From positions 620,001-684,000 of the forward strand of contig NZ_CP145606.1 of the NCBI RefSeq assembly GCF_028776105.2: a stretch of DNA of 64,000 nucleotides, read 5' to 3'. Positions within the stretch are counted from its first letter, which is position 1. Every line of letters starts with the position of its first letter. The notes under the pieces were generated by a model. The model was not told where the DNA came from, did not search any database, and worked only from the letters and a program-made list of their open reading frames with translations. The translations under genes and the position numbers were made by a program. Shown here one piece after another: positions 3-51,996 of this stretch. The stretch comes from Neisseria leonii. GTDB lineage: Bacteria; Pseudomonadota; Gammaproteobacteria; Burkholderiales; Neisseriaceae.

Positions 3-374
3 ACTTTTAAAGGCTCGCTGCCCACGCTGGACGAAGCCAAAATTGCCAAAAACTATCTGACCGAAGACGAACTCTTCCGCCTGAACCGGCTGGTATCCGC
101 CTTCTTCGATCTTGCCGAAATCAAGGCACAAGAGAAAACCCCCATGTATATGCGCGACTGGCTGGCAGAATTGGACAAATTTGCAGGCATCTACGGCAAA
201 GGCGTATTACAGGGCGCAGGCAGCATCAGACGTGAACAGGCAGATCAAAAAGCCGAACGCGAATACCGTGCCTATGAAGCGCGCACCTTGTCGCCAATAG
301 AGCACAGCTATTTGGACAGCATCAAGGCATTAGAAAAAACAGCAGTCAAACACAGTAAAGCACAGAAAAAATAG
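3..374 (+). CDS. RhuM family protein, C-terminal part (5' end outside window)
   Basis: An open frame enters from the left edge and ends at the TAG at 372-374, giving about 123 residues. It contains the typical RhuM tail: NYLTEDELFRLNRLVSAFFD, then a DWLAELDKF stretch, then an alanine- and glutamate-rich helix ending EARTLSPIEHSYLD. RhuM proteins (virulence RhuM family) are of unknown biochemical function and are often found inside type I restriction operons, which fits the hsdS that follows 61 bases later. hsdM is presumably further left. Recognition rests on remembered family motifs, not on a search. Confidence 0.7.
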   Translation, partial: TFKGSLPTLDEAKIAKNYLTEDELFRLNRLVSAFFDLAEIKAQEKTPMYMRDWLAELDKFAGIYGKGVLQGAGSIRREQADQKAEREYRAYEARTLSPIEHSYLDSIKALEKTAVKHSKAQKK

Positions 375-375
375 C

Positions 376-412
376 GTTCAGGCCGTCTGAAAACGGTTCA
401 GACGGCCTGAAC
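376..412. terminator. Inverted uptake-sequence hairpin after rhuM
   Basis: Two convergent copies of AGGCCGTCTGAA with extended arms (376-391 and 397-412) form a 16-bp perfect stem with a 5-base loop. There is no long T-run, so termination is likely but not certain. It is placed exactly between rhuM and hsdS. Confidence 0.5.
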
Positions 413-435
413 ACAAAACCGACAGGAAACAGACA

Positions 436-1050
436 ATGAAACCCAATCCGATTATGGAAAAACTCATCAATACAGGCGTACTTGCCCGTCATGCCGAAAC
501 GGTGAAATGGAAGACTTTGGGGGAAGTGGCGGATTATGAACAGCCAACAAAATATCTGGTCAGCTCAAACCATTATGATGATAAATATCCAATCCCAGTT
601 TTAACCGCAGGCAAAACCTTTATTTTGGGTTATACCGACGAAACCTACGGCGTTTATCCCGCTTCACACAGTCCCGTGATTATTTTTGATGATTTCACAA
701 CCGCGAATAAATGGGTGGATTTTGACTTTAAAGCCAAATCGTCAGCAATGAAGATGATCACAGCAAAAGATGAAAATGTCGCTTTATTGAAATATATTTA
801 TTACTGGCTCAATACACTACCTAACGAGCAGACAGATAATGATCACAAACGGCAATGGATTAGCAATTATGCCAAAAAATTAATCCCCATTCCCCCACTG
901 GAAGCGCAACGTGAAATTGTCCAAGTACTGGACAATTTCACGGAGCTTACAGCGGAGCTTACAGCGGAGCTTACAGCGCGTAAAAAACAATACGAATATT
1001 ACCGCAACCTTTTGTTAGATTTTGGCAATGGCATGGGGGGGGGGCAATAG
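436..1050 (+). CDS. hsdS: Type I restriction specificity subunit HsdS, first half (split by poly-G tract)
   Basis: This 204-residue protein is one target-recognition half of HsdS, the subunit that selects DNA sequence for the HsdM methyltransferase and HsdR nuclease. It opens with a conserved segment (WKTLGEVADYE near residue 25), has one recognition domain, and ends with the canonical IPIPPLEAQREIVQVLDNF motif, a TAEL repeat (residues 168-181) and KKQYEYYR. Translation starts at ATG 436 behind AGGAAA. It stops at 1048 just after a run of ten Gs. Removing one G, or adding two, would read through into the second half and give a two-domain protein of about 446 residues, the usual HsdS size. In the present state the half-subunit could act as a homodimer, as described for gonococcal NgoAV; that is inference here. 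Confidence 0.85.
   Translation: MKPNPIMEKLINTGVLARHAETVKWKTLGEVADYEQPTKYLVSSNHYDDKYPIPVLTAGKTFILGYTDETYGVYPASHSPVIIFDDFTTANKWVDFDFKAKSSAMKMITAKDENVALLKYIYYWLNTLPNEQTDNDHKRQWISNYAKKLIPIPPLEAQREIVQVLDNFTELTAELTAELTARKKQYEYYRNLLLDFGNGMGGGQ
941..976 (+). repeat. Three tandem 12-bp units encoding LTAE repeats in hsdS
   Basis: CGGAGCTTACAG is repeated three times without change and encodes repeated T-A-E-L in the central helical spacer of HsdS. In EcoR124I and EcoR124II, two versus three TAEL repeats change the gap between the two halves of the recognition site by one base pair. The same architecture here suggests a second way to vary specificity. Confidence 0.85.
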
Positions 1051-1777
1051 CCTTTTTCTTTCAGGCAGCCTGACAACAGGTAGGGTGGGCATCCCTCCCC
1101 ACCATCAAGCAGCAGAAGATATTGCCATGGAGGGCAAGCATGCCCGCCCTACCCGCAACCCGTTTTCAGACGGCATCGAAGTGGTTTGGAAGACGTTGGG
1201 GGAAGTGGGTAAACTTATTCGCGGAAACGGTATGCAGAAAAAAGACTTTACCGAAACAGGTGTTCCCGCCATTCATTACGGACAAATTTACACCTATTAC
1301 GGATTTGAAACCCATAAAACCCTTTCTTTTGTTTCGTCTGAATTGGCAAAGACCTTGAAAAAGGTCAATCACGGCGATGTTGTGATTACCAACACCAGCG
1401 AAAATCTTGAAGATGTGGGAAAAGCGGTACTCTATTTGGGAGAAAAACAAGCCGTAACAGGCGGTCATGCCACTATTTTCAAACCCAATCCTGAAATGAT
1501 TTTGGGCAAATATTTTGTTTACTGTACACAAAGTGCTTTTTTCGCAGCAGGAAAACGTAAATATGCCAAAGGGACAAAGGTGATTGATGTTTCTGCAACC
1601 GATATGGCGAAAATCAAAATCCCCATCCCCCCGCTCGAAACCCAAACCCGCATCGTCGCCATACTGGATAAATTCGACGCGCTTACCCATTCCATTTCAG
1701 ACGGCCTGCCACGCGAAATCGAATTGCGGCAAAAGCAGTATGAATACTACCGCGAGCGGCTGCTGACTTTTGCGTAA
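1028..1777 (+). CDS. hsdS: Type I specificity subunit HsdS, second half (out of frame with first half)
   Basis: This frame carries the second recognition domain. It begins with VVWKTLGEVGKLIRGNGM (near-copy of the first half's opening), has one TRD, and ends IPIPPLETQTRIVAILDKFD...QKQYEYYRERLLTFA. The frame is open from TTG 1022; ATG 1028 and ATG 1127 are possible starts, neither with a good ribosome binding site, so it may mainly be expressed as part of a fused HsdS. It overlaps the first half across the G10 tract in another frame. The first ~50 residues are a low-complexity linker made from uptake-sequence-like and palindromic DNA (1060-1170), not a conserved domain. Confidence 0.8.
   Translation: MAWGGGNSLFLSGSLTTGRVGIPPHHQAAEDIAMEGKHARPTRNPFSDGIEVVWKTLGEVGKLIRGNGMQKKDFTETGVPAIHYGQIYTYYGFETHKTLSFVSSELAKTLKKVNHGDVVITNTSENLEDVGKAVLYLGEKQAVTGGHATIFKPNPEMILGKYFVYCTQSAFFAAGKRKYAKGTKVIDVSATDMAKIKIPIPPLETQTRIVAILDKFDALTHSISDGLPREIELRQKQYEYYRERLLTFA
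1035..1044 (+). repeat. G10 homopolymer tract (contingency locus) in hsdS
   Basis: Ten consecutive Gs occur inside the 3' end of the first hsdS half. A tract of 9 or 12 Gs fuses both halves into one frame; 10 gives termination at 1050. Poly-G slippage is the classical phase-variation mechanism in Neisseria. Confidence 0.85.
1079..1153. repeat. 75-bp element with 14-bp inverted ends inside hsdS linker
   Basis: GGTAGGGTGGGCAT (1079-1092) is mirrored by ATGCCCGCCCTACC (1140-1153) with one mismatch. The element lies between the two recognition halves and is translated only in the fused frame. It looks like a small palindromic intergenic element fixed as a linker. Confidence 0.5.
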
Positions 1778-1805
1778 ATATGGGAATAGCGAATGAGGAA
1801 TAAAT

Positions 1806-2984
1806 ATGGGCAGCACGCTGACCGAAATTGCAGAACAACTTAAGGATGCAAACAAAAAAGTCCATTTGATTTATGCGTTCAACGGCACGGGCAAAACACG
1901 TCTGTCGCGTGAGTTCAAACGGCTGATTTCCCCTAAAACGGACGACAACACAGAAAATAAGGATGGGGAAGATGCAAGCACTTTGACCCGGAAGAAAATT
2001 CTTTATTACTCGTCTTTTACGGAAGATGTGTTTTATTGGGATAATGATTTGGCACATGATTCCGAAGTCAAATTGAAAATTCAAGACAATTCATTCACGC
2101 ATTGGGTGTTTGTCGAACAGGGTTTGGAAGAGAGGGTAACCAAAACATTCCAGAGCTATACGGATGAAAAACTTACCCCTGTTTTCAACGAGGATTTTTC
2201 GGAAGTCAGGTTCTCTTATGCCAGCGGCGATGATGCGGTGCTTGAAAACATCAAAATTTCCAAAGGAGAAGAAAGCAATTTTATTTGGAGCGTGTTTTAT
2301 TCGCTGCTGCAGCAAGTGATTTCCGAGTTGAACATTGCTGAAAAGGAAGAGCGTTCGACGGATAAATTTGACAATTTGGAATATATTTTCATTGATGATC
2401 CTGTGAGCTCTTTAGATGAAAATCACCTTATTGAACTGGCTATTGATGTTGCCCAATTAATAAAATCAAGCCAATCGGAATTGAAATTTATCGTTACAAC
2501 GCATAACCCGCTTTTTTATAATGTGCTGCATAATGAATTCAAATATGAAAAGAAACTCGGAAAGAAATATGTGATGGAAAAGCTGAATGACGGCAGCTTT
2601 CTGCTGAATCCCCAGAATACCGGTTCACCGTTTTCCTATCATCTCTATCTGAAAAAAGAAATCCATCGGGCTCTTATGGAAAATCAGGTACAGAAATACC
2701 ACTTCAACCTGCTGAGAAATCTGTTGGAAAAAACTGCAACTTTTCTCGGTTACGAACGTTGGGGGGAGTTGCTGCCGAAAGACCCCGACGGATCCAATGC
2801 TACGGAAAACAGGCTGGCCAGAATGATTAATTTCTACAGCCATTCTTCTCACTCCAATGAAGATGCCGCATTAATCAAGCCCGAAGAAAAACAGATTCTG
2901 AATCATATTTTAAAGATATTAGACAATGATTACAGGTTTTATCCGATTACCCCAGCGTCTGACAAGGTAGAAAAACATGACTGA
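1806..2984 (+). CDS. prrC: PrrC-type anticodon nuclease (ABC-ATPase plus HEPN-like RNase)
   Basis: This 392-residue protein matches the size and layout of E. coli PrrC, the latent tRNA-Lys anticodon nuclease carried in the type IC locus EcoprrI. Visible in order: Walker A FNGTGKT (25-31), ABC signature ISKGEES (151-157), Walker B YIFIDDP (193-199), H-loop His233, then a C-terminal segment with [12 protein letters not shown] (271-282) that resembles the tRNA-Lys recognition peptide of PrrC. The likely nuclease residues are R304 and E308 (RNLLE) with H346 in RMINFYSH, a HEPN-like R-X6-H motif; E. coli uses R320, E324 and H356. ATG 1806 follows a GAGGA site. The gene lies between hsdS and hsdR and overlaps hsdR by 8 bases, as expected for a toxin held silent by the restriction complex and released when phage disables it. 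No truncation is visible. Confidence 0.85.
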
Positions 2985-5900
2985 AGCCACCCTCCCCATC
3001 GCCGAAACCAACCATTTCATCGTTCTTGACACATACGAAAAAATCGATCAGTCCGGCGCGGTATATCAGACCGAATACGATTTGGAGAAAGAATTAATTA
3101 CCGATTTGCAGGCGCAGGGTTATGAATACCGACGCGATTTGAATACGCATGACAAGCTGCTGGCCAATGTGCGCGAGCAGTTGCAGAAGTTGAACGGCAC
3201 GGTGTTTTCAGACAGCGAGTGGGCGCGTTTTACGGCGGAATATCTCGACAGGCCGTCTGAAAATCTGATTGAGAAAACCCGCAAAATCCATGACGACTAC
3301 ATTTACGATTTTGTGTTTGACGACGGGCATATCCAAAACATTTACCTGCTGGATAAGAAAAATATTACCCGCAACCATGTACAGGTGATCAATCAGTTCG
3401 AACAGACAGGCAGTCATGCCAACCGTTATGATGTTACGGTGTTAATCAACGGCCTGCCGCTGGTGCAGATTGAATTGAAAAAACGCGGCGTGGCGATCCG
3501 TGAAGCGTTTAACCAAGTGCACCGCTATACCAAAGAAAGTTTCAATACAGAGCATTCACTATTCAAATACCTGCAAATCTTCGTGATTTCCAACGGCACG
3601 GACACGCGCTATTTTGCCAATACTACCCGCCGCGATAAAAACAGCTTCGATTTTACGATGAACTGGGCGCGAGCCGATAACGGGCCGATTAAAGATTTGA
3701 AAGACTTTACCGCCACTTTTTTCCAGAAAAATACGCTGCTGTCCGTACTGCTGCATTATTCGGTATTCGATACCAACGACACACTGCTGCTGATGCGCCC
3801 TTATCAAATTGCGGCAGCGGAACGGATTCTGTGGAAAATCACAAGTTCGGCTCAGACCAAAAACTGGAACAAACCCGAAAGCGGCGGCTATATCTGGCAC
3901 ACCACAGGCAGCGGTAAAACGCTTACCAGCTTCAAGGCCGCGCGCTTGGCCACCGAATTGGACTTTATCGACAAAGTGTTTTTTGTGGTGGACAGAAAAG
4001 ACTTGGATTATCAGACGATTAAGGAATACCAGCGTTTTTCGCCCGACAGTGTGAACGGTTCGGAAAGCACGGCAGGATTGAAACGCAATCTGAACAAAAA
4101 CGATAATAAAATCATTGTTACCACCATTCAGAAACTGAATAATCTGATGAAGTCGGAAGATAATCTGCCGGTGTATCAACAGCAGGTAGTATTTATTTTC
4201 GATGAGTGCCACCGCAGCCAGTTTGGCGAAGCACAGAAAAACTTAAAGAAAAAATTCAAAAAATTCTGCCAGTTCGGTTTTACAGGTACACCGATTTTTC
4301 CCGAAAACGCCTTGGGCGCGGACAATACGCAAAACGTGTTCGGCCGCCAGCTGCATACTTATGTGATTACCGATGCCATCCGCGATGAAAAAGTATTGAA
4401 ATTCAAAGTAGACTATAACAATGTGCGGCCGCGTTTCCAGTCTTTGGAAAGCGAGCAGGATTTGGAAAAATTATCCGCGTATGAGAACCGCCAAGCACTT
4501 TTGCATCCCGAGCGTATCCGCGAAATTACGCAATATATCCTGAACAGCTTCAAACACAAAACCCACCGTATGAACGCGGGCGGCAAGGGATTCAACGCCA
4601 TGTTTGCCGTCAGCAGTGTAGACGCGGCCAAAGCCTATTACGAAGCGTTCCGACAGTTGCAGCAGGAAGCGGAAAATCCGCTGAAAGTGGCAACCATTTT
4701 TTCTTTTGCAGCCAACGAAGCACAAGATGCGATCGGCGATATTGCCGACGAAGGTTTTGGGACGGATGCCATGGACAACAGCGCGAAAGCGTTTTTAAAT
4801 GCCGCTATTGCCGACTACAACGCACACTTCCGCACCAATTACAGCACTGACAGCCGCGAGTTTCAAAACTATTACCGCGATTTGGCACAAAGAGTGAGAA
4901 ACCGGGAAGTGGATTTGCTGATTGTAGTCGGCATGTTTTTAACCGGTTTTGATGCGCCCACGCTGAACACCTTGTTTGTCGATAAAAACCTGCGCTATCA
5001 CGGCCTGATGCAGGCGTTTTCCCGCACCAACCGCATTTATGATGCCACCAAACCTTTCGGCAATATCGTAACGTTCCGCGATTTGGAACAGGCGACGATA
5101 GATGCGGTTACCCTTTTCGGCAATAAAAATACCAAAAATGTGGTACTGGAAAAAAGTTATCGGGAATATATGGATGGTTACACCGACCAGCAGACCGGCG
5201 ACGTGCGGCGCGGCTATTTGGCAGTGGTCAAAGAATTGCAGGACCGTTTTCCCAATCCCGATCAGATCGCAACCGAACAGGATAAAAAAGACTTTGCCAA
5301 ACTCTTCGGCGAATACCTGCGCGTGGAAAATGCGCTGCAAAATTACGATGAATTTACCGCGCTGCAAGCCTTCCGCGATTTGAACCACACCAATGAAACA
5401 GCAGTCGAGGAATTTAAAGAAAAATTCAATCTCCAAGACCAAGATTTTGCCGCTATGCAGACGGTTCCGATGCCGTCTGAACGCACCGTGCAGGATTACC
5501 GCTCGGCCTACAACGACATCCGCGACTGGCTGCGTCAAGCCCATTCCGCAGAACAGCAGACGCAATCCAAGATTGATTGGGGCGATGTGGTATTTGAAGT
5601 GGATCTGCTCAAATCGCAGGAAATCAATCTGGATTACATTTTGGAATTGATTTTCGAACACAACCGGAAAATCAAGGATAAAGACGTATTGGTGGAAGAA
5701 ATCCGACGTACCATTCGCGCCAGCATCGGCAACCGCGCCAAAGAAAGTCTGGTGGTGGCATTTATCGAAACAACCGATCTGGATGCAATCACCGACAAAC
5801 CCGATATTCTCGACCACTTTTACCGTTTTGCTCAAAACGAAATGAAGCGCGAAGCAGCCGAATTAATCGAAACAGAGCAGCTCGACGGCCGGACGGCCAA

Positions 5901-6078
5901 ACGCTATATAGAAACTTCGCTCAAACGCGGTTTTGTCTCGGAAAACGGAACCGACCTGCACCAAATGCTGCCCAAAATAAGCCCGCTCAATCCGAAATAC
6001 CTCAAACGCAAACAGTCTGTTTTTGAAAAAATCAGCGCGTTTGTAAACAAATTCAAAGGCGTGGATAAAAAAATCTGA
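2977..6078 (+). CDS. hsdR: Type I restriction endonuclease subunit HsdR
   Basis: A 1033-residue motor and nuclease subunit of the type I enzyme. The N-terminal PD-(D/E)XK nuclease shows D152 (NRYDVTV) and E166-L-K168 (IELKK), one residue from the EcoR124I positions D151/E165/K167, which places it in the type IC family. The SF2 translocase follows with Walker A HTTGSGKT (about 308-315), the DECH box at 409-412 and FGFTGTP motif III. The C-terminal helical part ends at a TGA. ATG 2977 overlaps the 3' end of prrC, so the two are translationally coupled. The gene is intact and probably the last of the operon. Confidence 0.95.
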
Positions 6079-6226
6079 ACCTGACCGGTTCAAGGTTTGC
6101 AGCAGCTGCCTGATAGCCGGAAACATCAGGCCGTGAACAGGCCGTCTGTGAAATTCCGGCAGAACGCCCGATATCCGTATATCTGGATGCCGTCTGAAAA
6201 CCCATTTGAAAATTGAGGAGCAAACG

Positions 6227-7090
6227 ATGCCGTATGAACCTTTCACGTTTTCCTGTGCCGACGGTTATCCGTTGGCCGCATCTTGGCATATACCCGGACA
6301 ACCGCCACGCGCCACTGTGATGATCGCTCCCGCCACAGGCATTACCCAACGCTTTTACCGTCCGTTTGCCGAATATCTGGCGCAAAACGGTTTTGCCGTA
6401 CTCACGTTCGACAACCGCGGCATCGGGGAATCGCTGCACGGCCGTCTGAAAGGCCATACGGCATCACTGGTCGATTGGGGGCGGCTGGATATGGCTGCCG
6501 CACTGGATACGCTGATGAAGCGTTACCCCGCCCTGCCCTGCCACCTGATCGGCCACAGCGCAGGGGCGCAGCTTGTCGGACTGATGGACAATGCCCACCG
6601 TCTCGCTTCCCTGTTTGCTGTCGGCTGCTCATCGGGCTGTCTGGCCAATATGAAGGGCTGGTACGGCCTCAAAGCCCGTTTTTTTATGAATGTCTTTATC
6701 CCGTTGTCCAATGTGCTGTCGGGCTATGCGCAAACCGACAAACTCGGCATGGGCGGCCCTCTGCCCAAACAGGTGGCGGCGGACTGGCGGCATTGGTGCA
6801 ACGGGCGCGGTTATGCACAAACCGATTTCGGCAGCCGTATCCGGCAGCATCAATATGACACGCTCGCCGTTCCCGCCCTGTGGCTGACCGCCACCGACGA
6901 CGATATAGCCGTGGCCGCCAATGTATACGATATGGCTGCGGTATTTGCCCGCCTGTCGCCGGATCTGGTGTTTCTGAACCCGGCCGATTACGGCCTGGAA
7001 AGCATCGGCCACATGAAATTTTTCAGCCGCAGCAGCAGCGTGGCACTCTGGCCGCTGGCTTTGGAGTGGCTGAACCGCCACAGCGGGTAG
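6227..7090 (+). CDS. Alpha/beta-fold hydrolase, serine type
   Basis: A 287-residue hydrolase. The nucleophile elbow LIGHSAGAQL puts the catalytic serine at residue 111. FDNRGIGES follows strand 4, TATDDDI is a likely acid site and SIGHMKFF carries the likely histidine. The start is ATG 6227 behind GAGGAG (6215-6220); an upstream in-frame TTG lacks such a site. It resembles predicted hydrolases of the COG4757 type; the substrate is unknown. An ATGCCGTCTGAA uptake sequence lies just upstream at 6187. Confidence 0.8.
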   Translation: MPYEPFTFSCADGYPLAASWHIPGQPPRATVMIAPATGITQRFYRPFAEYLAQNGFAVLTFDNRGIGESLHGRLKGHTASLVDWGRLDMAAALDTLMKRYPALPCHLIGHSAGAQLVGLMDNAHRLASLFAVGCSSGCLANMKGWYGLKARFFMNVFIPLSNVLSGYAQTDKLGMGGPLPKQVAADWRHWCNGRGYAQTDFGSRIRQHQYDTLAVPALWLTATDDDIAVAANVYDMAAVFARLSPDLVFLNPADYGLESIGHMKFFSRSSSVALWPLALEWLNRHSG

Positions 7091-7117
7091 CAGACATACA
7101 GGCAGGCCGTCAAACGC

Positions 7118-7765
7118 TTATACCTGATACAGCGCATACACCGCCGCCACAGCAACGGCGGCGGCGGCCAGAAAAGCACCGGCACCGGCAAACCGCAGTT
7201 TCGGCGCAGCGGGCAGGAATTTATAGCCGCTGATCATCGGCGTTACCAGATTCTGCTTTTTCACCAAACGGTACACCGCCACCGCAGCGATATGCACGGC
7301 AACCAGTGTCAGCAGAACATTGAAAAACGCCATATGCAGCGAACGCATCGCACTGCCGGCGGTCTCGCTGACCAAGCCGTTGAGGTAGCCGTTGTGGATA
7401 AACGTATTTTCATCGGCGGCAAACAGCCCGCTGACCAGCTGGACAGCCAAAGCCGCCAGCAAAGCCAGCACCATCATCGCCCCCAGCGGATTGTGTCCCG
7501 GCTGTTCGCTTTCGCCGACTTGGCCGCGCAGATAAGCCGCAATACGGCCGGGACGGACAAATTGGCGGAAACGGGCGGTGTCGCTGCCCCAAATACCCCA
7601 GCAGATACGGAAAACCAGCAGCCCGAACAGCAGAGAACCGATGCGGATATGCCAAGCCAGCCAATTGCCGCCGGTTTCGGCACTGAACCACATAAAGGCA
7701 AATCCCGCCGCCAGCAGCCAGTGAAACAGGCGCGTGGGCAAATCCCAAATTTTAAAACGCTGCAT
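7118..7765 (-). CDS. Cytochrome b561 / Ni-hydrogenase b-type family membrane protein
   Basis: A 215-residue integral membrane di-heme cytochrome b. Opening KIWDLPTRLFHWLLAAGF is the family hallmark and supplies the first heme histidine. Further candidate ligands are in AWHIRIG, SLHMAFFN and AVHIAAV within successive hydrophobic segments (about residues 15-30, 40-60, 95-115, 145-165, 190-210). It probably passes electrons between quinol and a periplasmic partner, but no cytochrome c partner is adjacent. Start ATG 7765 follows a GGAAGGG-rich leader. Confidence 0.85.
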   Translation of the reverse strand: MQRFKIWDLPTRLFHWLLAAGFAFMWFSAETGGNWLAWHIRIGSLLFGLLVFRICWGIWGSDTARFRQFVRPGRIAAYLRGQVGESEQPGHNPLGAMMVLALLAALAVQLVSGLFAADENTFIHNGYLNGLVSETAGSAMRSLHMAFFNVLLTLVAVHIAAVAVYRLVKKQNLVTPMISGYKFLPAAPKLRFAGAGAFLAAAAVAVAAVYALYQV

Positions 7766-7811
7766 CTTCCATTCCCTTCCTCAATCCCATCGAATACCGA
7801 CGGCCGAATAT

Positions 7812-8480
7812 TCAGCGGCCGTTGATGCGGTCTGCCAAACCGAGCAGTGCCAGAGGCACGGCGGCGTAATCGTCAGCCGGCCAGCTGTCCGTATCGTCGC
7901 TATCGGCGATATAGCCCCAGCCGGCCAGAACCGTCCGCATACCGGCAGCGCGTCCGGCCTGCATATCGCGCTCGGCATCACCCACATACAGGCAGTACTG
8001 CGGCGCAATACCCAGTTGGGCGCAGGCATACAGCATGGGTTTGACCGAAGGCTTGGCTTCGCCGCAGGTATCACCGCTGACCACCACTTCTGGCGGCGGC
8101 TCAAACGCCAGATGCGGTACCAGACGGTCGGTAAACGCCGCGGGCTTATTCGTGATAATGCCCCAGCGGATACCGCGTGCCGCCAGCCCGGCCAATACTT
8201 CTGCCACGCCCTCGAACAATACCGTATCGCGGTCGAAGCATTGTCCGTATTCGGCCAGATACTCCGCCCGCCATGCCGCATAATCGGCATGGTCTTTGCC
8301 GATGCCTGCACCCAGCATAATCAGCCCCGCCGCGCCGTGGCTGGCCACCGGCCGTATGGCCGCCATGCTTTGCGGCGGCAGGCCTTTTTTGGCCAGCAGA
8401 CGGTTGAGCGCGCCGCCCAAATCCGGCGCGGTATCGGCCAGCGTGCCGTCCAAATCGAATAAAACTGCCTGTATTTCCAT
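7812..8480 (-). CDS. gph: Phosphoglycolate phosphatase, HAD family
   Basis: 222 residues with all HAD motifs: LFDLDGTLADTAPD (motif I nucleophile at residue 9-11), GIITNKPAAF (motif II/III region) and YVGDAERDM (motif IV). This enzyme removes phosphate from 2-phosphoglycolate formed by DNA repair. HAD specificity is hard to assign from motifs alone, but length, cap position and the opening match Gph. ATG 8480 follows AAAGGA. The gene ends about 46 bases before the cytochrome b561 start on the same strand, so they may be co-transcribed. Confidence 0.8.
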   Translation of the reverse strand: MEIQAVLFDLDGTLADTAPDLGGALNRLLAKKGLPPQSMAAIRPVASHGAAGLIMLGAGIGKDHADYAAWRAEYLAEYGQCFDRDTVLFEGVAEVLAGLAARGIRWGIITNKPAAFTDRLVPHLAFEPPPEVVVSGDTCGEAKPSVKPMLYACAQLGIAPQYCLYVGDAERDMQAGRAAGMRTVLAGWGYIADSDDTDSWPADDYAAVPLALLGLADRINGR

Positions 8481-8704
8481 TGTTTTCCTTTAAACGGCCG
8501 TCTGAAATCGTGATGCCGTCAAACGGTTGCCGCCGAATATTGGCCGTTGGACAGATTTTGCCGAAAGCCGGACCGTCGGGAAACGCTTCGGCACATTTCC
8601 CGCCAAGGCCAAACACGCGCAACGGCGGGATTCAGACGGCCTTTGGCGGCCATAAACGTTCTGCCGCAGCACGGTAAGCCCGCAACGGCAGGCGGGCTAT
8701 TTTA

Positions 8705-9541
8705 TCAGAAAGCGCTCCGCGCCGTTTTCCCGTGTTGCAGGCTCTGCTCAAAGTTCTCCAACACCGCCATTTCAAAACGGCTGAAACCCGCCCGCTCGCG
8801 CGCGTCCAGATTGACATAGCCGCGGAAAATAAACAGATCGTAGCGCGACAGCAGACGGCGGAACAGCGCCATCGGTTCCAGCCCGCGTTCGCGGCACAGA
8901 TATTGATACCAATGATTGCCGGTTTGGACATGGCCGACTTCGTCGCGGTAAATCATGTCCAGCACCCCGCAGGTGGCCGTGTCGCCCTTTTGCGCCACCT
9001 TGGCGCGGATGGCGGGGGTAACGTCCAACCCGCGCGCTTCCAGTACGCGCGGCACCAACGCCATACGCAGCAGCGGGTCGTAAGCGGTTTTGTAGGCCAT
9101 ATCCCACAAATGGCCGTGTGCCTCAAAATCGCCGTAGTCGAAGCCGTGTGCGCGCAGGCGGTCGCGCATCGCTGAAAAATGCCGCGCTTCTTCGGCGGCC
9201 ACCGTCAGCCAGTCGCGGGTAAACGCAACCGGCAGACGGCGGAAACGGTAGGCCGCGTCCAGCGCGAGATTGACTGCGTTAAATTCGATATGGCAGATGG
9301 CGTGCAGCATGGCGGCATAGCCTTCGGGCGTATTCATTTTGCGCGGGGTAACCGCCGAGGGCGGCACCAGCACCAAACCGTCGGGCAGCCCCGCATAGCG
9401 GAAATCGGCCGCCGCCGTCTCGGCATCGCGGCCTGAGCGGATCTCCGCCGCCAACGGCCGCAGCTGCCCGGCCAAACGGCATTTTTCATCGGCATCGCGG
9501 CAGAGCAATGCAGTCAGAATATCGGCATAAACAGCCTTCAT
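8705..9541 (-). CDS. DUF455 ferritin-like domain protein
   Basis: A 278-residue protein with the ferritin-like (DUF455) pattern of paired metal ligands: HAICHIEFNAVNLALDAAYR, then EEARHFSAMRDRLRAHGFDYGD, then YRDEVGHVQTGNHWYQ. The E..H and E..H pairs would form a di-iron site. The role is unknown; members resemble tRNA-modifying MiaE-like di-iron hydroxylases in fold only. ATG 9541 is preceded by GAAAGGAAAT; an upstream in-frame start at 9574 has no such site. Confidence 0.75.
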   Translation of the reverse strand: MKAVYADILTALLCRDADEKCRLAGQLRPLAAEIRSGRDAETAAADFRYAGLPDGLVLVPPSAVTPRKMNTPEGYAAMLHAICHIEFNAVNLALDAAYRFRRLPVAFTRDWLTVAAEEARHFSAMRDRLRAHGFDYGDFEAHGHLWDMAYKTAYDPLLRMALVPRVLEARGLDVTPAIRAKVAQKGDTATCGVLDMIYRDEVGHVQTGNHWYQYLCRERGLEPMALFRRLLSRYDLFIFRGYVNLDARERAGFSRFEMAVLENFEQSLQHGKTARSAF

Positions 9542-21180: not shown

Positions 21181-23130
21181 TTAAAGTGTTTCAAACCTGA
21201 CCCCTGCATCTTGGCATTGCAAGGCGGCGTTGGTTTTTGCGGCATCGTCTCCGCCGAATATGCGGTCCAGGGCAAAAACGGTTTCGGGCGATGCTGCTAA
21301 ACAGCGGTTCAGCAGGTTTTCATTGAAATGTTCCAACAAAAGCGCGGTTTTGCGTGTGCCTGCCGCATTGTCCAGCCATACGATGCCGTCTGAAAACGCC
21401 ATCGGATCGGTCAATTGAAAGCCCAAGCGCAAAGCCAGTTCACAGGCCAGATGTCCGGCGGGGACATTTTCATCGACAATATTTTGAAAGATTGCCAGCT
21501 GCGCCGTTAAGCCTGCTTCATCACGGGTTTCGGGATTTTGCCATTGCCTGAAATGGCTCTTATGAAGTTTGAACACTTTAAAACCCGTATCCACGCTTTG
21601 ACCGTCTTTCAGGCCGTCTGAAATCTGCTTGCCTGCACGGCGGATGCGTTCTTTGGCGATGTCGGCGATGGTGGCGAAACCTGCTTTGTGGGCTTCGGAT
21701 TTTTCATCGGTTTCTTCGGGCAACTGCACGCAGATGAAACGGCGGTTGCCGCCGTCTTCGGCGTTTAACTGCATAACGGCGTGGGCGGTTGTGCCGCTAC
21801 CTGAAAAGAAATCCATAATCAACGAATTTTTATCATTTATTGTTGAAATTAAAGTAGAAATAAATTTTACGGATTTAGGATAGTTGAAATATTTAGCATC
21901 AAATAAATCCTGTAAATCACTATTTCCGTCTGTTGTTCCGCCGAAATCCATTGTAAAACTTCTTGGCGTTTTACCTTTGTTATTCAAGTACTGCTTAAAT
22001 TGAATACTCCATTCATCTGAATTATTTTTGCGAGTAATACGGACTAATCCTGTTGCGTATTCCTGTTCAAATCTTTCTTTTGAATGTATCCAACGCTTGG
22101 TTAAAATCGTTCCGTCTGGGCATTCAATACCATAAACAAGACTTTCTTCGCTTTTTAATTGCAAACCTGGTCTTGCAAAAGTATCCCAAAAATATTTACC
22201 GTTTTCGTCCTCTTCTTTATAGCGTTTAAGATAATCTTGGCTGTGTTGAATATACATTTCTTGTAAATATTCAATATTTTTTGCATAACAAAAACAAAAC
22301 TCGTGTTCTTTCACGATAAATTTTGTATCGTTTCCACCGCCGACTTTTGATTGTTTTAAATATTCGCCGACAAAATTCTCCGCCCCAAAAATTTCATCAC
22401 ACAACAATTTCAGTTGTGCCTGTTCATTGTCGTCAATGCTGATAAAAATCACGCCGTCATCGCGCAGCAGCGTTTTCGCCAAATGCAAGCGCGGCAACAT
22501 CATGGAAAGCCAATTGCTGTGATAGTGCCCACTTTCTTTGCTGTTTTTGCGCCACGCACCTTGAAATACGCCGTCCCTTATTAAGTAGCCGTCTGTATCT
22601 TTATCGCTCACGCGGCGGGCATATGCATCGCGGGTTTCGCTGAATTTATCGGGATAGATAAAGCTGTCGTTACCCGTATTGTAGGGCGGGTCGATATAGA
22701 TCATTTTCACGCTGCCCGCATAGGATCTTTGCAGGATTTTCAGCGCGTCCAGATTTTCCGCTTCGATAAAGATGTTTTGCGTGGTGTCGAAATTGACGCT
22801 TTCATCTTGGCAGGGAATCAGGGTATTGAAGGTGGGCGACTGTAAGGCGCGGTAGGCTTGGGATTTGCCCGCCCAGTTGAGTTGGTAGCGTTCGCCGTTT
22901 TGGCAGAGATGGTCTTCGCCGAGAATGAGTTTGAGTTTTTCCCAGTCGATTTGGTTTTCGCAGAAGATTTCGGGGAAAAGTTGCTTGAGCTGTAATAATC
23001 TGTTTTGTTGGAAATTATTTTCTAAATCATGTATAATTTCGGTTCGGTTCGGTTCGGTTCGGTTCGGTTCGGTTCGGTTGCCATACTTGTCCCCTCTGTT
23101 TCTGAATCGGTTTAATCGGATAGGATTCAA
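21181..23130 (-). CDS. mod: Type III DNA methyltransferase Mod, phase-variable
   Basis: A beta-class N6-adenine methyltransferase with DPPY first (MIYIDPPYNTGN, about 144-154) and the SAM site later (FFSGSGTTAHAV, about 438-449). The central recognition region (about 21815-22420) is far more AT-rich than the flanks. Eight ACCGA repeats lie at the 5' end. The long frame opens only at a TTG (23130) without a ribosome site. The best start is ATG 23084, 6 bases after AGAGGGG. From this ATG, with eight repeats, translation ends after 20 codons; 7 or 10 repeats would give the full protein. The gene is therefore probably OFF in this DNA. ACCGA is the repeat described for meningococcal modD; orthology is inferred from the repeat only. 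Confidence 0.9.
   Translation of the reverse strand: MNPIRLNRFRNRGDKYGNRTEPNRTEPNRTEIIHDLENNFQQNRLLQLKQLFPEIFCENQIDWEKLKLILGEDHLCQNGERYQLNWAGKSQAYRALQSPTFNTLIPCQDESVNFDTTQNIFIEAENLDALKILQRSYAGSVKMIYIDPPYNTGNDSFIYPDKFSETRDAYARRVSDKDTDGYLIRDGVFQGAWRKNSKESGHYHSNWLSMMLPRLHLAKTLLRDDGVIFISIDDNEQAQLKLLCDEIFGAENFVGEYLKQSKVGGGNDTKFIVKEHEFCFCYAKNIEYLQEMYIQHSQDYLKRYKEEDENGKYFWDTFARPGLQLKSEESLVYGIECPDGTILTKRWIHSKERFEQEYATGLVRITRKNNSDEWSIQFKQYLNNKGKTPRSFTMDFGGTTDGNSDLQDLFDAKYFNYPKSVKFISTLISTINDKNSLIMDFFSGSGTTAHAVMQLNAEDGGNRRFICVQLPEETDEKSEAHKAGFATIADIAKERIRRAGKQISDGLKDGQSVDTGFKVFKLHKSHFRQWQNPETRDEAGLTAQLAIFQNIVDENVPAGHLACELALRLGFQLTDPMAFSDGIVWLDNAAGTRKTALLLEHFNENLLNRCLAASPETVFALDRIFGGDDAAKTNAALQCQDAGVRFETL
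23039..23078 (-). repeat. Eight ACCGA pentanucleotide repeats in mod
   Basis: On the minus strand ACCGA occurs eight times in a row just inside the mod start (plus strand GGTTC). Five is not a multiple of three, so each gain or loss changes the reading frame. Confidence 0.9.
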
Positions 23131-25693: not shown

Positions 25694-26936
<1,243 letters not shown>

Positions 26937-26958
26937 CCTGGCAACAGCGGTACGGCAA

Positions 26959-51411: not shown

Positions 51412-51487
51412 GGGTGATTAGCTCAGTTGGTAGAGCGTCTGCCTTACAAGCAGAATGTCGGCGGTTCGACTCCGTCATCACCCACCA
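51412..51487 (+). tRNA. tRNA-Val (anticodon TAC), copy 1
   Basis: Cloverleaf with acceptor GGGTGAT/ATCACCC, anticodon stem TCTGC/GCAGA, loop CTTACAA and an encoded ACCA end. Confidence 0.97.
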
Positions 51488-51518
51488 AGTTTCCTTTGCC
51501 GCATTGAAACGGCAATGC

Positions 51519-51595
51519 GCGGCGGTAGCTCAGTTGGTTAGAGTATCGGCCTGTCACGCCGAGGGTCGCGGGTTCGAGCCCCGTCCGCCGCGCCA
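51519..51595 (+). tRNA. tRNA-Asp (anticodon GTC), copy 1
   Basis: Cloverleaf with acceptor GCGGCGG/CCGCCGC, anticodon stem TCGGC/GCCGA, loop CTGTCAC and an encoded GCCA end. A small hairpin (TTGCCG...CGGCAA) lies between it and tRNA-Val. Confidence 0.97.
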
Positions 51596-51604
51596 CCATA
51601 TTCA

Positions 51605-51680
51605 GGGTGATTAGCTCAGTTGGTAGAGCGTCTGCCTTACAAGCAGAATGTCGGCGGTTCGACTCCGTCATCACCCACCA
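51605..51680 (+). tRNA. tRNA-Val (anticodon TAC), copy 2
   Basis: Identical to the copy 193 bases upstream. Confidence 0.97.
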
Positions 51681-51711
51681 AGTTTCCTTTGCCGCCTCAA
51701 AACGGCAATGC

Positions 51712-51788
51712 GCGGCGGTAGCTCAGTTGGTTAGAGTATCGGCCTGTCACGCCGAGGGTCGCGGGTTCGAGCCCCGTCCGCCGCGCCA
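51712..51788 (+). tRNA. tRNA-Asp (anticodon GTC), copy 2
   Basis: Identical to the copy 193 bases upstream; the spacer before it differs at a few bases. Confidence 0.97.
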
Positions 51789-51996
51789 CATCATGCACCG
51801 TTCGGGTGCTTTTTTTCTGCCCCACGAAAACACCCAAACCGTACCTGACAAAAATACAGCAGATGCCAAACAGAATGCCCGTCTCTTTCAGACGGCCTTC
51901 TATATCGCATATCGCACCAAATCATTCGATATTCTGTTGTTCCCCATCCCGTACGGCATTTTGACTGACTCAATTCAACCACTCGGATACAAAAAA

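Follow-up and report, generated by a model that had tools for sequence, protein, structure and literature searches.

We propose, at a probability of about 85%, that the window, a 64,000-nt stretch of Neisseria leonii DNA, begins within a phase-variable type IC restriction-modification operon of the NgoAV kind, the specificity of which is predicted to be switched by slippage in a G tract. The sequence, reading frames, homologies, recurrence of the tract with both states in relatives, and substitution pattern of the second hsdS half were computed here; slippage, the activity of both HsdS forms, and the resulting change in specificity have been shown by others for related systems and are extended to this locus by analogy. 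An initial annotation had already read the locus as a specificity switch, which accords with the anatomy, with the differences in tract length among relatives, and with a second half that is open. To it we add a TAEL-coding repeat, a prrC gene, a hairpin repeat in the linker, and the possible separate synthesis of both HsdS halves in the split state.

The operon has the order hsdM-rhuM-hsdS1/hsdS2-prrC-hsdR. The hsdM gene lies upstream of the window in the same genome (L108; 512 aa, with an NPPY motif and N6_Mtase and HsdM_N domains), and the window opens inside a RhuM-family gene, which starts before it and has its 3' end at 3..374 (+), between hsdM and hsdS. The hsdS1 gene (436..1050, +) encodes a 204-aa half-subunit comprising TRD1 and the central conserved helix (Pfam Methylase_S, E 1.4e-10), and hsdS2 (1051..1777, +), in the frame of position 1022, encodes the second HsdS half with TRD2 and the distal conserved helix (Methylase_S, E 1.3e-16). 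Downstream are prrC (1806..2984, +; 392 aa), a gene of the anticodon-nuclease type (PADLOC PrrC, E 8.8e-139 over residues 3-385; Pfam AAA_13), and a type IC, EcoR124-like hsdR (2977..6078, +; 1033 aa; Pfam EcoR124_C, E 8.5e-69, and HSDR_N), which overlaps prrC by 8 nt and retains the D..ExK and DECH motifs. An EcoR124-type HsdR, an HsdM, and Methylase_S matches in both HsdS halves are therefore present in one operon, as in type IC systems; an NCBIfam search found no family for HsdS1 or PrrC. A scan of 300-3100 gave 5 promoter-like signals, compared with 5.6 in shuffles, and 2 terminator-like signals, compared with 3.5. Between rhuM and hsdS1, an inverted pair of uptake sequences (374-414) is terminator-like on the minus strand only.

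The predicted slippage site, a G10 homopolymer (1035..1044, +) at the end of hsdS1, is the only run of seven or more Gs on either strand of the window. The hsdS1 stop codon (1048-1050) starts three bases past the tract, and the hsdS2 half is open in the next frame through 1777. The initial annotation had placed ten Gs exactly at the junction of two HsdS halves in different frames; the count, position, and frames are borne out, but the tract marks the end of the HsdS1 helix, and frame reading puts a 136-nt linker (1045..1180, +), open in the hsdS2 frame only, between it and the second HsdS domain, which starts with VVWKTLG at 1181. The state read was rightly called split, with G10 leaving HsdS1 and HsdS2 in different frames. 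By frame arithmetic, nine Gs fuse the halves into the 446-residue subunit that had been foreseen, and twelve Gs also fuse them, into 447 residues rather than the 446 given earlier. The third frame past the tract meets a stop at 1071, so that only one tract phase in three gives fusion. A search for G8 in the window returned three overlapping matches against a mean of 2.49 in shuffled windows, 46 of 100 of which reached three, so that this comparison does not discriminate; the genome as a whole contains 19 distinct tracts of at least G9 (counted from 42 overlapping matches). This genome tract count, together with the presence of G7-G10 at the same junction in six of ten Neisseria loci, indicates that G10 is not a chance run.

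We searched 46 Neisseria genomes, one per species and including that of our strain, and read the junction in all ten that carry an HsdS1 homologue. Uninterrupted tracts occupy it in six, four of them split (G10 at our own locus, G8 in both G015 and G019, G7 in G022) and two fused (G10 in G011, G9 in G040). Interrupted runs are found in a split locus of G009 (GGGGGGTGGG; L110, junction about 4400) and a fused locus of G037 (GGAGGGGGG; L115, junction about 5375), and these are apparently locked remnants of the switch; G029 and G044 are fused and have no G run at the junction. The HsdS junction is a recurrent tract site, with both frame outcomes among Neisseria relatives. As expected of an NgoAV-type locus, hsdS1 has at its 3' end a G tract that parts two out-of-frame HsdS halves, and tract length and frame state both vary, here between species. 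Because four of the ten loci lack a run of at least seven Gs at the junction, systems of this kind do not depend on the switch. G011 also contains a weak extra HsdS match (L024, E 6.6e-5).

The G10 length comes from one assembly, and homopolymer counts may be off by one. Homopolymers are typical error sites and the tract-bearing loci of G011 and G040 are fused, so the ten Gs might be an assembly error or a minor variant in a culture consisting mainly of the fused G9 form. We consider this improbable, given that the split state prevails among the tract-bearing loci (four of six) and that gonococci most often carry the split 7G form (60/92, in passages of PMC9577141); moreover, an error of this kind would alter the state read, not the mechanism.

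Beyond these genomes, we inspected 80 HsdR relatives among the matches listed (at least 550 in all), one of which is from N. polysaccharea. Among the matches listed, a G run at the HsdS junction occurred in one of the 80, the G13 of Haemophilus quentini K068 (L099:6291-6303), Haemophilus being covered by the genome of that locus. HsdS was located in 86 of the 91 loci scanned (the 80 HsdR relatives and 11 Neisseria stretches), so that a handful of loci could not have shown a tract. Two other homopolymers, a G7 at an hsdM/hsdS boundary (L035) and a C8 inside the gene (L034), were left out of the junction count.

As expected if fused variants recur, hsdS2 is open and its substitutions follow a purifying-selection pattern. 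Between the window and the fused gene of G011 (L109), hsdS2 gave dN 0.33 and dS 1.60 over 196 codons, with dS near saturation, and the split-state pair L111 and L113 gave dN 0.012 and dS 0.146 over 186 codons; past fused phases may account for the signal in these comparisons. The hsdR comparison gave dN 0.16 and dS 1.46, and that for prrC was dropped for an unusable dS (-1). This pattern, along with the fused relatives and the uninterrupted tract, speaks against hsdS2 being a decaying remnant in a permanently split gene, an explanation for which the interrupted tract of the split L110 locus can be cited and which we regard as very improbable. In L112 (G019), the longest hsdR frame listed, on the reverse strand (about 5800-8900), is 623 aa, and this hsdR may be broken.

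The predicted target of the split state follows from the resemblance of TRD1 and the spacer helix to those of EcoR124. HsdS1 matches residues 15-199 of the EcoR124 HsdS (7bst) at E 6.5e-90 for the whole sequence, with 303 bits in all and 271 for the best stretch, and its alignment with an HsdS from an E. coli plasmid shows 69% identity across 181 positions. A 12-bp tandem repeat (941..978, +; 3.2 copies by TRF), in-frame and potentially variable, encodes the TEL-TAEL-TAEL-TA part of the spacer helix. This helix contains two complete TAEL units and aligns without gaps to the TAELTAEL helix of 7bst. Passages of PMC3874165 and PMC2877798 associate two TAEL units with N6 spacing (EcoR124I) and three with N7 (EcoR124II), and report that EcoR124I-delta50 and EcoR124I-NT target GAAN7TTC and that the three-TAEL EcoDXXI half-subunit targets TCAN8TGA. 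With this EcoR124-like TRD1 and helix, GAAN7TTC is predicted as the split-state target, and we consider it fairly probable. The runner-up is GAAN8TTC: the 7bst structure is named EcoR124II, yet its helix has two TAEL units, the number given for EcoR124I in a passage of PMC3874165, and if the effective number were three, N8 spacing would follow. The genome contains 476 GAAN7TTC sites, compared with 210 for a reversed control pattern; the motif is thus not avoided, which is neutral for a variable system.

Alternatively, the half-subunit could be inactive, so that the split state would only turn the system off. Passages of PMC9577141 presume that 43 of 92 gonococcal loci yield no active enzyme, owing to extra hsdS1 mutations together with the 7G frameshift. 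We think a plain ON/OFF role improbable here, as HsdS1 is complete through the conserved helix, like the active half-subunits of EcoR124I, EcoDXXI, and NgoAV. Passages of PMC3874165 describe palindromic targets for the EcoR124I and EcoDXXI halves.

The hsdS2 half matches residues 199-396 of the EcoR124 HsdS (E 9.4e-33) and is 62% identical over 199 positions to the second half of L109 and 70% identical to that of an E. coli plasmid HsdS. We tried to assign a TRD2 target from these homologues; no record for them states one, and none is claimed. An E. coli plasmid locus with an anticodon nuclease gene (L152) has TRD1 in common with ours but not TRD2.

The linker is lengthened by a hairpin repeat, a 75-nt inverted-repeat element (1079..1153, +) with 14-bp arms (1079-1092 and 1140-1153); the segment 1070-1165 folds at -39.4 kcal/mol. 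The arm GTAGGGTGGGC occurs once in the genome. The element, which may have been imported, is matched in five others of the 46 genomes: G027, G040, and G045, each matching more than once, have it near full length (70-76% identity), and the remaining matches are pieces of 26-33 bp. In the predicted fused form, the linker would exceed that of EcoR124 by tens of residues, which would count against our preferred explanation.

Eight in-frame start codons for hsdS2 (1022, 1028, 1085, 1127, 1181, 1196, 1205, and 1232) raise the alternative that the split state still yields HsdS1 and HsdS2 as separate proteins and that their heterodimer keeps the bipartite target, perhaps beside homodimer targets. Co-expressed EcoDXXI halves restored wild-type activity (PMC3874165, in part), and gonococcal strain NJ189125 is thought to be active through an hsdS2 lengthened at its 5' end, as a passage of PMC9577141 has it; the same source reports that hsdS2 of FA1090 has no active protein product. 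At our locus, anti-SD pairing is weak at 1022 (-0.4 kcal/mol), 1028 (-2.0), and 1127 (-2.2) compared with the starts of hsdM, rhuM, hsdS1, prrC, and hsdR (-5.1 to -7.4) and with random 20-mers (median -2.5). The nearest candidate, GTG 1085, reaches -5.9, but its G-rich stretch abuts the start codon, and both 1085 and 1127 lie inside the predicted hairpin. Starting at TTG 1196 (-4.9), GTG 1205 (-8.4), or ATG 1232 (-4.6) would truncate or eliminate the conserved WKTLGE stretch. None of the in-frame hsdS2 starts checked had a neighbour-like ribosome site that also keeps the start of the conserved domain, and we judge the heterodimer quite unlikely.

Our preferred reading is thus a slippage switch between a self-pairing half-subunit and a fused subunit. 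Replication slippage in the G tract would toggle HsdS between the half-subunit (G10 or the third frame) and a two-domain subunit (G9 or G12). When split, HsdS1 would pair with itself through the conserved helix and, with two HsdM subunits, mark a palindrome, most likely GAAN7TTC; when fused, TRD1 and TRD2 together would recognize GAA and the TRD2 half-site, separated by a spacer of 6 or 7. Each unit gained or lost in the 12-bp TAEL repeat could in addition alter the spacing by roughly one base. We infer both the switching in our strain and the motif. GAAN7TTC is a concrete prediction, and if correct it would be another natural palindromic type I specificity, checkable by an ordinary methylome.

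With a full-length prrC between hsdS and hsdR, the switch lies inside a guarded type IC operon. PrrC combines an ATPase domain with a predicted C-terminal nuclease part that carries R-x3-E and H. All four sequences aligned, including an E. coli plasmid protein with the annotation anticodon nuclease, have R304, E308, and H346, which we take to be the catalytic triad. A PDB search with PrrC gave two matches only, at E 0.34 and 0.93, and neither was used. Among the 46 Neisseria genomes, three have PrrC homologues, two of which (in our strain and G011) lie in operons with a poly-G hsdS; another Neisseria carries a divergent homologue (L118:6006-7148, 34% identity) beside a different type I system. 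At least 31 HsdR relatives (31 of the 80 among the matches listed) were accompanied by a PrrC match above 150 bits. The poly-G switch can therefore share an operon with PrrC, and E. coli PrrC, in the excerpts of the literature available, cleaves tRNA and is silenced by an Hsd complex, the same kind of complex that is being switched here.

A further possibility, which we hold to be unlikely, is that the tract sets both the DNA mark and the dose of PrrC and HsdR. In the split state, translation would end at 1050, leaving 755 untranslated nt and the hairpin (1079-1153) before prrC and hsdR; polarity would then lower PrrC and HsdR together, with HsdS1 homodimers marking GAAN7TTC. In the fused state, translation would run to 1777, 28 nt before prrC, giving a bipartite complex and more PrrC and HsdR. 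If this were true, cells would vary randomly in their DNA mark and in the arming of a tRNA-cutting suicide response. Few C-rich stretches that might serve as Rho sites are present, the clearest at 1597-1674 (28 C, 11 G), and these are suggestive only. Earlier publications, as excerpts show, already place PrrC in a type IC operon and describe restriction loci that combine PrrC-like genes with RhuM; a literature search, covering abstract openings and passages, found no publication that joins a poly-G hsdS switch with PrrC.

Other repeats occur elsewhere in the window. A type III Mod-like methyltransferase ORF (21181-23130, -), which presumably resembles the neisserial modD, carries, close to its 5' end (23038-23079), a run of about eight CCGAA units that read as TEPNR repeats, so that the window may hold a second phase-variable methyltransferase. 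A tgt-like ORF (25733-26869) has at its 3' end 7.1 copies of the 11-bp unit CACGGATTGAA (26860-26937), and a 193-bp tandem duplication (51412-51789; 98% matches) contains tRNA-Val(TAC) and tRNA-Asp(GTC) twice. Uptake sequences in the window number 53 of the AG type and 6 of the AT type, and those in an N. polysaccharea contig (L028) 12 of the AT type and 2 of the AG type; gonococci and meningococci use the AT type.

The initial annotation had pointed out that gonococcal NgoAV switches between a truncated and a full HsdS and so changes specificity, and this is documented in passages of PMC9577141, where the loss of one G joins hsdS1 to hsdS2 and the target shifts from GCAN8TGC to GCAN7STCA. The fused form is quoted as GCAN7STGC in an excerpt of PMC6789123, which gives GACN6TGC and GACN7TGC for strains with other repeat numbers. 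In an NgoAV-type hsdS of N. lactamica, the change from (G)9 to 10 was seen under both in vitro and in vivo conditions, whereas the change to 11, like changes in its 12-bp repeat, was confined to in vivo conditions (PMC6232127, in part). Simple repeats are reported in almost 10% of type I systems (PMC7394358, in excerpt), a gonococcal repeat survey includes a poly-G hsdS in the part available, and excerpts of PMC5953494, PMC5320596, PMC3710099, and PMC12707154 provide further background.

Like NgoAV of Neisseria gonorrhoeae FA1090, in which slippage alters specificity, and the N. lactamica locus, ours is a type I operon with poly-G at the end of hsdS1, a half-subunit of about 200 aa, and an in-frame 12-bp helix repeat. 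It differs in its EcoR124-like TRD1, with GAA predicted where NgoAV has GCA, in having TAEL rather than LEAT repeats, in the extra hairpin repeat in the linker, and in its prrC, the gene list given for NgoAV in the excerpts being hsdM, hsdS1, hsdS2, and hsdR. TRD1, the spacer helix, and the HsdR type are shared with EcoR124I, whose half-subunit, reading GAAN7TTC in the passages cited above, is however a deletion mutant or engineered, and whose TRD2 differs from ours. The placement of prrC inside a type IC operon and the retained R, E, and H residues recall EcoprrI-PrrC of E. coli, for which the excerpts mention no homopolymer switch in hsdS. The Haemophilus quentini locus has its G13 at the same HsdS junction and repeats of the TSEL type, but belongs to another genus, has its frames fused as assembled, and contains no PrrC match. 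The switch mechanism itself has already been published for NgoAV; what this locus would add, as predicted from its sequence, is a specific motif and the link to PrrC.
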